Virus record (IMG/VR): IMGVR_UViG_3300040856_001514
Coordinates: 1 to 28,101 of that record
Source of the DNA: a virus
DNA length: 28,101 nucleotides
Direction: 5' to 3' (one strand)
A program made the position numbers and the translations under genes. Below, piece by piece: positions 11,826-12,731 of this stretch. Within the stretch, counting starts at the first letter, position 1; the number at the start of each line of letters is the position of its first letter. Below the pieces are notes generated by a model. The model was given only the letters and a program-made list of their open reading frames with translations. It was not told the DNA's origin and did not search any database.

Positions 11826-12197
11826 ATGAGCGTGAAAGACGATATAAAGCACATAAGACCATTATGTAATTCTTGTAAAACTAGACCTGCGGCTTTTAAT
11901 TACAAAAGAAAAGGCAAAGTTTATTATCGTAAAAAATGTGATCAATGTATCAAAACTGATGCAGGTGAGAGAACAAAATACAATTATTCATGGGTCAAAA
12001 GCGGATATAGAAAGAAAAGTATCTGTGAAAAATGTGGCTTTAAATCAAAACATCCTTCACAAATGGACGTTTATCACATAGACGGCAACTTAAAAAATTC
12101 TAGTTGGGATAACTTAAAAAGTATATGTGCTAATTGTAGTAGAATCAAAAGTCTTGACGAAGTAGGGTGGAAACAAGGTGATTTATTACCAGATTAG
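11826..12197 (+). CDS. HNH-type zinc-finger endonuclease
   Basis: 123 residues with two metal-binding units. The N-terminal CNSC (14-17) and CDQC (38-41) form a zinc-ribbon pattern. The C-terminal HNH part has CEKC (67-70), the core YHIDGNLKNS with His84, Asp86 and Asn88, a second NLKSICANC with Asn96, and Cys101/Cys104 completing the zinc knot. This is the small phage HNH protein type that nicks or cuts DNA, either as a free-standing homing enzyme or in packaging. It is transcribed opposite to gp18 and converges on a lipoprotein gene, with stop codons overlapping in TTAG. Its position beside tRNA genes and between tail genes of the other strand suits a mobile insertion. All key residues are present. 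Confidence 0.85.
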   Translation: MSVKDDIKHIRPLCNSCKTRPAAFNYKRKGKVYYRKKCDQCIKTDAGERTKYNYSWVKSGYRKKSICEKCGFKSKHPSQMDVYHIDGNLKNSSWDNLKSICANCSRIKSLDEVGWKQGDLLPD

Positions 12198-12373: not shown

Positions 12374-12467
12374 TGGTAGTCCTGACAGGATTTGAACCTG
12401 TATCGCTCTCTAATCTGGAGACTGTGCCGAGTATAAGCCGGGTGTTTTACCATTAAACTACAGGACT
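12374..12467 (-). tRNA. tRNA with UAU anticodon (Ile, AUA) and long variable arm
   Basis: The acceptor stem is a perfect AGTCCTG/CAGGACT, followed by A and an encoded CCA. The D arm is GTTT-AATGGTA-AAAC and the T arm ACAGG-TTCAAAT-CCTGT is perfect. The anticodon arm CCCGG-CTTATAC-TCGGC has one C-C mismatch at the base and a G-U at the top, and gives anticodon UAU with U33 and A37 in place. The variable region is about 24 nt with a TCTC/GAGA stem, which is normal for Leu, Ser or Tyr but not for Ile. The amino acid is therefore uncertain. AUA codons are common here (five in the visible gp17), so an AUA reader would make sense. Confidence 0.7.
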
Positions 12468-12644: not shown

Positions 12645-12731
12645 TGGTGCGAGCAGAGGGACTCGAACCCACACACCATAATTGATAACGGATTTTAAGT
12701 CCGTTGCGTCTACCTATTCCGCCATGCTCGC
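12645..12731 (-). tRNA. tRNA-Leu(UAA)
   Basis: Acceptor stem GCGAGCA/TGCTCGC, discriminator A and encoded CCA. D arm GCG...CGC with AGG in the loop, anticodon arm ACGGA-CTTAAAA-TCCGT with anticodon UAA, a class II variable arm of about 15 nt, and T arm GTGGG-TTCGAGT-CCCTC with one T-T mismatch. It reads UUA, a frequent leucine codon in this AT-rich genome. Confidence 0.93.

Follow-up and report, generated by a model that had tools for sequence, protein, structure and literature searches.

The isoleucine codon AUA is served in bacteria mostly through TilS, while tRNA-Ile3(UAU), which also reads it, has a standard short variable loop of 4–5 nt. The isoleucyl-tRNA synthetase (IleRS) and the UAU tRNAs of lactic acid bacteria are reportedly the subject of papers by Tomikawa (2018) and Uesugi (2022), to judge from their titles, and the Mycoplasma mobile system is said to rely on an adapted IleRS rather than on a second arm, Taniguchi (2013) reportedly being the primary paper. 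AUA is an awkward codon, since the matching UAU tRNA is reportedly charged inefficiently in E. coli (PMC4810244). Where tRNA-Ile2(CAU) serves AUA, the twin problem of decoding and charging is solved enzymatically, CAU being converted by TilS to the lysidine-bearing LAU (PMC10128029, PMC11938285). In Mycoplasma, Bifidobacterium and Neorickettsia, AUA is read by tRNA-Ile3(UAU) (PMC8450103, PMC4810244), which the M. mobile IleRS charges efficiently, this being 'not the case in E. coli' (PMC4810244). In an E. coli laboratory strain with conditional tilS, growth is reported to be restored by a pair of M. mobile IleRS and tRNA (PMC4810244). A tilS deletion in B. subtilis is described as suppressed by a CAT-to-TAT change in the anticodon of tRNA-Ile2 (PMC10128029). 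Among the features that the synthetase inspects, a review lists the C29-G41 pair as a determinant for E. coli IleRS and t6A37 as a strong determinant for bacterial-type IleRS (PMC9976931). Long structured variable regions belong to the class II tRNAs (Leu, Ser and bacterial Tyr), and a UAU anticodon is combined with an extra variable arm in the nev-tRNA-Ile(UAU) of Caenorhabditis, whose arm is Leu-like and which is charged with leucine in vitro (PMC4300185).

Here we describe a tRNA-Ile(UAU) in which the variable region forms a hairpin resembling the anticodon arm of tRNA-Ile(GAU). It is encoded in a stretch of 28,101 nucleotides (positions 1 to 28,101 of the IMG/VR virus record IMGVR_UViG_3300040856_001514), which we refer to in its entirety as the window. 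Our literature survey covered open-licence articles in PMC, as distinct from subscription journals, and within it we recognised no description of a tRNA with a second, GAU-bearing arm.

Structure of the tRNA gene

The gene lies on the minus strand of the window (Table 1). ARAGORN calls it as an intact tRNA-Ile with anticodon TAT, and its score of 60.8 bits against the Rfam model RF00005, for which the gathering score is 29, is neither that of a weak nor of a degenerate tRNA. Its acceptor stem pairs perfectly over 7 bp, and a 4-bp D stem bears a 7-nt D loop; a T arm, A73 and an encoded CCA are present, as are U12-A23 and C4-G69 alongside UAU. Read 5' to 3', the first half comprises AGUCCUG, UA, GUUU-AAUGGUA-AAAC, A and CCCGG-CUUAUAC-UCGGC (acceptor strand, D arm and the regular anticodon arm, here called arm 1); the second half comprises the linker ACAG, the variable-region hairpin UCUC-CAGAUUA-GAGA (arm 2), the linker GCGAU, the T arm ACAGG-UUCAAAU-CCUGU, the acceptor strand CAGGACU, A and CCA.

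The initial annotation, made from the letters alone, had described a real UAU tRNA with good acceptor, D and T arms and CCA, and with a 24-nt variable region possessing its own stem; it had also proposed a tRNA covariance model as a check. Each of these descriptions is borne out, the Rfam model scoring the gene above its threshold and ARAGORN calling the UAU anticodon. The 24 nt separate the anticodon stem from the T stem and form a hairpin in which four base pairs close the 7-nt loop CAGAUUA, and such a long structured variable region is, as the annotation had remarked, most unusual for isoleucine. By its minimum free energy this fold does not stand out (z -0.38, with equally good folds in 56 of 200 shuffles), so fold energy is uninformative and the case for arm 2 is built on comparison. 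The stem of arm 1 has 4 bp with a C27/C43 mismatch, which is common to the window tRNA and three Lactobacillus phage relatives, occurs in 28 of 69 distinct relatives and possibly loosens arm 1.

Table 1. Positions in the window of the tRNA gene and its parts.
Feature	Position	Strand	Basis
Whole tRNA gene with encoded CCA (CCA at 12374-12376)	12374..12467	-	ARAGORN; Rfam RF00005
Arm 1, predicted decoding anticodon arm; loop CUUAUAC, U33 and A37 present	12426..12442	-	sequence, Rfam, folding
Anticodon UAU, predicted to read AUA	12433..12435	-	sequence; ARAGORN
Arm 2, resembling the tRNA-Ile(GAU) anticodon arm; UCUC/GAGA stem, loop CAGAUUA	12407..12421	-	folding, family comparison
GAU, the ordinary Ile anticodon, at positions 34-36 of the arm-2 loop	12413..12415	-	family comparison
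Arm-2 pair equivalent to C29-G41 (its C is 12420, its G 12408)	12408..12420	-	family comparison
5-nt linker GCGAU from arm 2 to T stem; last base U48 with A15, Levitt-type pairing	12402..12406	-	

A family in phages and bacteria

Relatives, for which the initial annotation had proposed to look, are numerous. BLAST matched the whole tRNA, including the variable arm, in the Lactobacillus phages LpeD (83.7% over 97%), ENFP1 and 3-521; named cyanophages were rejected as a source, none appearing among the 60 listed of 87 BLAST records for the window tRNA. A second query, from another member of the family (L120), matched Acinetobacter phage qsb1 and Vibrio phages, with coverage of at least 80% in 44 of 54 records, and all three matches inspected (qsb1, henriette 12B8 and Luma) encode a tRNA-Ile(TAT) with a long variable region, hereafter a long-V TAT tRNA. 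A plasmid search with one member (L008) gave no match. Three pattern scans of IMG/VR matched 80, at least 120 and at least 120 stretches, two of them selecting for UUAUA and the other, like a scan of genomes, for the AGAUUAG loop. The genome scan returned eight stretches, in seven of which ARAGORN calls tRNA-Ile(TAT); four are acidobacterial, each with the long-V gene adjoining a tRNA-Ile(GAT), and three of these four share the order Thr-Asn-Lys-Ile(GAT)-Ile(TAT)-Gln.

When the 119 genomes of an acidobacterial order were searched with a covariance model, 17 of them yielded a total of 18 matches scoring at least 73 bits, a count that leaves aside a 91-nt match of 60 bits (G114) and weaker ones, mostly of 71–76 nt, which look like ordinary tRNAs. 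All 18 loci, read one per match, have a long variable region, with a GAU loop in 17 and GAC in one (L274), although the model, trained on all 84 aligned family sequences, is biased towards GAU. The gene sits among other tRNA genes in 17 of these loci. Altogether the collected loci yield 251 long-V TAT tRNAs, 147 of them unique, the scan-derived sources being represented by the matches listed and some loci being mutual duplicates (the window and L006; LpeD twice; L265-L272, which repeat genome hits). The carriers are IMG/VR contigs, phages of Lactobacillus, Vibrio and Acinetobacter, and acidobacterial genomes.

TilS was found above cut-off in all six gene-bearing metagenome-assembled genomes tested (four acidobacterial, two marine), by which mutual exclusion of the long-V tRNA and TilS is rejected; the tRNA is therefore not the sole AUA solution there. 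Ten TAT tRNAs with short variable loops occur in the collected loci, eight of them beside a long-V one, and 65 of the 251 long-V tRNAs are in loci that also hold a separate tRNA-Ile(GAT).

Several minor features of these loci deserve mention. A divergent subgroup (L088, L092, L103, L111, L115, L128 and others), several genes of which ARAGORN misses, combines a shrunken D arm with the same GAU second arm. In L230 near 13433 and L213 near 5685, 3' halves of the gene are placed next to a complete copy or follow a foreign 5' segment, a pattern suggestive of recombination inside the gene. The short-V TAT tRNAs at L151 6404 and L209 408, each beside a long-V one, are identical to the tRNA-Ile(GAT) of L227 except for the wobble base. 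Dense tRNA arrays occur in the acidobacterial order, with 18 (L278), 18 (L284) and 17 (L286) tRNAs in about 3 kb.

Conservation and covariation of the second arm

Because of the bias of the scans, loop counts are restricted to the 69 distinct variable regions found without the V-loop pattern. GAU is present in the V-arm loop of 67 of these. In 66 the arm parses with at least three of its four pairs formed and GAY at the centre of a 7-nt loop, the triplet being GAU in 65 and GAC in one. The three others do not enter the per-position counts: L054 and L151 have GAU in an unparsed loop, and L138 is without it. The exceptions to GAU are L138, L274 with GAC and L003 (Lactobacillus brevis phage 3-521), in the last of which we would guess that selection on arm 2 is relaxed. 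Tree and pair counts use all 84 sequences; in 63 of these variable regions the best stem leaves a 7-nt loop, and in the 21 that differ pairing can enter the loop or the best stem lies elsewhere.

On a parsimony tree of the 84 sequences, built from a short alignment of related members from which the variable region was excluded, loop positions 34, 35 and 36 of arm 2 change 0, 0 and 2 times, against 12 changes at position 32, 6 at 33, 13 at 37 and 11 at 38. Within the stem, pair 29-41 changes 4 times while 28-42 changes 32 times, 30-40 30 times and 31-39 10 times; the 29-41 pair of arm 1 changes 25 times. The stem sequence of arm 2 varies widely, with compensation: both sides have changed in 23 of 24 pairs of the tRNA, including all four of arm 2, and none of 500 shuffles reached any of five covariation measures. 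What is held fixed in arm 2 is the triplet of the ordinary tRNA-Ile and a single stem pair, C29-G41. The equivalent of this pair is C-G in 63 of 66 second arms, in 27 of 43 distinct tRNA-Ile(GAU) arms of the collected loci, and, among the remaining anticodons represented by at least 12 distinct arms, in no more than 33% of the arms of any one.

Features needed on the ribosome are mostly absent from arm 2. Loop position 33 is A in 60/66 and U in only 2/66, and position 37 is U in 52/66 and A in 8/66, whereas the tRNA-Ile(GAU) arms of the same loci have U33 in 37/43 and A37 in 41/43. Arm 1 has UUAUA in all 69 distinct relatives, a motif for which the patterns and the choice of TAT calls themselves select. 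Positions 15 and 48 are A/U in 44 of the 69, G/A in 13, G/C in 11 and A/A in one, position 15 having been taken by a fixed offset that misfits members with a shrunken D arm. Two further ideas were rejected: that the V loop and D loop make a loop-loop contact, as the D-loop bases vary and the V loop does not, and that the hairpin is an intron-like insert of 21 nt, as the insert is conserved and we know of no mechanism for one.

Isotype of the second arm and its link to UAU

A classifier blind to the triplet, which used the stem pairs and positions 32, 37 and 38 with 34-36 withheld, called 28 of 44 distinct second arms as Ile, compared with 24 of 43 native tRNA-Ile(GAU) arms, 51 of 1158 non-Ile arms and 5 of 69 first arms; with the pair order of arm 2 permuted, the mean was 13.4 and the maximum 18 of 44. 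Stem pairs 28-31 alone gave these numbers of Ile calls (arm 2, 32/44; native, 31/43; non-Ile, 84/1158; arm 1, 9/69; permuted stems, mean 9.0 and maximum 15). Arm 2 is Ile-like by its stem as well as by its triplet, and since about 30% of the permuted stems still receive an Ile call, composition carries part of this signal.

Arm 2 is also tied to the UAU anticodon. The V-loop scan sets no anticodon, and the 44 loci fetched by that scan only hold 44 motif sites, 40 of them in TAT tRNAs; among the matches listed, one further site is uncalled with TTATA upstream, two look like 3' fragments (L213 and L230), and one has a CAG call (L200) without TTATA upstream. Across all loci 157 of 168 motif sites lie in TAT tRNAs and 10 are uncalled, eight of these with TTATA.

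Body identity and class membership

The body alone is not clearly that of a tRNA-Ile. Among the 147 unique sequences the best body isotype is Arg in 41, Lys in 38 and Ile in 18, with Ile in the top three in 76; the body is called Leu twice, Tyr once and Ser never, isotypes for which the classifier had leave-one-out accuracies of 0.95 (Leu), 0.93 (Ser) and 0.86 (Tyr). Individual Ile features are frequent in the 69 distinct relatives: A73 in 68, C4-G69 in 47 and U12-A23 in 54. Of the long-V TAT tRNAs, 163 have a linker of 5 unpaired nt between hairpin and T stem and 78 have one of 6 (241/251 together). In the same loci the V-stem linker is 0–2 nt in 147/148 Leu and 145/146 Ser tRNAs (1 nt in 115/148 and 115/146 respectively) and 3 nt in 31/46 Tyr tRNAs.

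If arm 2 is taken as five pairs long, 4 nt are left to the T stem in 48, 5 nt in 17 and 6 nt in 1 of 66, while among 1734 short variable regions in the same loci 555 have 4 nt and 1088 have 5 nt. Together with the following 4–5 nt, arm 2 matches in size a class I anticodon arm and its variable loop, which would be compatible with a swap of the two arms.

In common with class II the window tRNA has a variable region of at least 10 nt with a stem (24 nt, 4 bp), and it departs from that class in lacking both a linker of 0–3 nt and a Leu, Ser or Tyr body, as well as in its conserved GAU loop. With its Ile-codon anticodon, A73, C4-G69 and U12-A23 it has the marks of an Ile tRNA. It shares UAU for AUA with tRNA-Ile3(UAU), but has 24 nt in place of the short class I variable loop. 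It has U34, not the C34 of tRNA-Ile2(CAU), and both its UAU and its GAU arm are genome-encoded rather than made by an enzyme. UAU and an extra arm are common to it and nev-tRNA-Ile(UAU), although its linker is unlike the Leu V arms of the same loci, the nematode tRNA being compared by its published description (PMC4300185). The closest likeness is between arm 2 and the anticodon arm of tRNA-Ile1(GAU), in GAU, C29-G41, mostly A38 and a 7-nt loop; the differences are the location in the variable region and mostly A33 for U33 and U37 for A37.

A proposed division of decoding and identity between two arms

We consider it probable that arm 1 decodes AUA and that arm 2 is a stand-in presented to IleRS, a proposal that stems from the inefficient charging of plain tRNA-Ile(UAU) reported for E. 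coli. Arm 1, in the normal place and with UAU flanked by U33 and A37, would read AUA on the ribosome; being a poor substrate for an E. coli-type IleRS, it would be complemented by arm 2, which may mimic the features that IleRS inspects in the tRNA-Ile(GAU) arm, namely G34-A35-U36, C29-G41 and mostly A38. An unmodified host IleRS could then charge the tRNA with isoleucine through arm 2, making TilS and lysidine unneeded. To our knowledge, IleRS does not bind at a variable-region hairpin; since arm 2 lies outside the known IleRS site, the two arms would have to swap which of them stacks under the D stem, or IleRS would have to bind in another pose. The comparisons establish an intact tRNA family whose second arm is conserved, covaries, looks Ile-like and goes with UAU; charging with isoleucine, IleRS as the reader and the conformer swap are what we infer. 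The fuller picture, for which we judge the chances to be barely better than even, is of a tRNA with two heads that uncouples identity from decoding: a GAU 'identity anticodon' within the variable region would serve the synthetase and a separate UAU the ribosome, perhaps through an arm swap, as an encoded alternative to lysidine that has been spread at least partly by phages.

Some observations weigh against this interpretation. Arm 2 mostly lacks A37, despite the role of t6A37 in bacterial IleRS recognition (PMC9976931), and the short-V TAT tRNAs of the collected loci speak against a universal need for the second arm. The B. subtilis suppressor likewise implies that a UAU tRNA presumably without arm 2 suffices in that host (PMC10128029), so the help of such an arm is not required by every IleRS. 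The ambiguous isotype of the body, the location of arm 2 in the variable region, the presence of TilS in carriers, the exceptions to GAU, the 21 variable regions with a different loop and the share of composition in the classifier signal count against it as well. A different reader of arm 2, while AUA is still decoded by arm 1, is a less likely alternative; it might be a modification or processing enzyme, or the arm might be a sacrificial decoy for an anticodon nuclease that attacks tRNA-Ile(GAU). A loop like that of tRNA-Ile(GAU) except at 33 and 37 is what a decoy might have, many carriers are phages (though most scans covered viral collections), and HNH genes neighbouring this tRNA, both in the window and in LpeD, 3-521 and qsb1, suggest mobility. 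Such a reader would presumably have to be near-universal across the hosts of Lactobacillus, Vibrio and Acinetobacter phages and the Acidobacteriota, and to care about C29-G41, a known IleRS feature. A decoy had been raised in the initial annotation and is conceivable for phages, but the tRNA occurs in 17 of 119 genomes of a bacterial order, almost always among other tRNA genes, and these acidobacterial clusters make a purely phage-defence role less likely.

The initial annotation was right about an unusual UAU tRNA with a long variable region; its suggestion of a re-purposed class II tRNA is unsupported. That a Leu, Ser or Tyr tRNA acquired a mutated anticodon and is mischarged has a precedent in the combination of UAU and a long variable arm in nev-tRNA-Ile(UAU), charged with Leu in vitro (PMC4300185), but we regard it as very improbable in view of the linker lengths, the near-absence of Leu, Ser and Tyr bodies and the 4-bp D stem and 7-nt D loop of the window tRNA. 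Nothing positive favours mischarging as such, arm 2 being Ile-like even if the body outside it shows no clear Ile identity. We give equally little credence to decoding by both arms, with UAU reading AUA and GAU reading AUC and AUU through alternative conformers so that one tRNA would serve all Ile codons; the class I dimensions of arm 2 would permit it, while the bases at 33 and 37 and the separate tRNA-Ile(GAT) in 65 of the 251 cases oppose it. A functionless duplicated or inserted hairpin is the least probable reading of all: the stem sequence is widely variable, as a neutral relic would be, but the near-invariance of the triplet beside changeable neighbours and the covariation of the stem make a relic difficult to defend.

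In place of the class II reading we arrive at Ile tRNAs of a class whose second arm resembles an Ile anticodon arm, and recognition of that arm by IleRS is, on balance, the best-supported mechanism. If correct, it would add a further solution for AUA in which the charging signal resides on a second arm, imply that synthetase identity and decoding are separable onto distinct anticodon-like arms, and suggest a way of re-assigning codons without engineering a synthetase; phages could gain AUA decoding independently of host TilS.

Genomic setting in the window

AUA makes up 112 of 437 Ile codons (14.0 per 1000 codons) in the 27 window ORFs counted, in agreement with the initial remark that it is used regularly. 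A tRNA-Leu(UAA) called by ARAGORN lies upstream of the tRNA-Ile on the same strand, at 12645-12731. The window encodes tail sheath, portal, major head and tail tube families, and the best-listed capsid matches include Vibrio phage 2.275.O (67.6%) and Pseudomonas phage PA5oct (65.9%), both large phages, which suggests that the virus is a large T4-like phage.

HNH endonuclease genes lie close to the long-V tRNA in the window (11826-12197, plus strand), LpeD (L001, 3252-3872), phage 3-521 (L003, 3122-3778) and qsb1 (L251, 3527-3808), LpeD and 3-521 both being Herelleviridae, and possibly help the tRNA to spread; no HNH gene is annotated near the long-V tRNA in ENFP1, henriette or Luma. A radical-SAM protein (phrog_14086) is encoded at 1511-2830 on the minus strand of the window, near virion genes.
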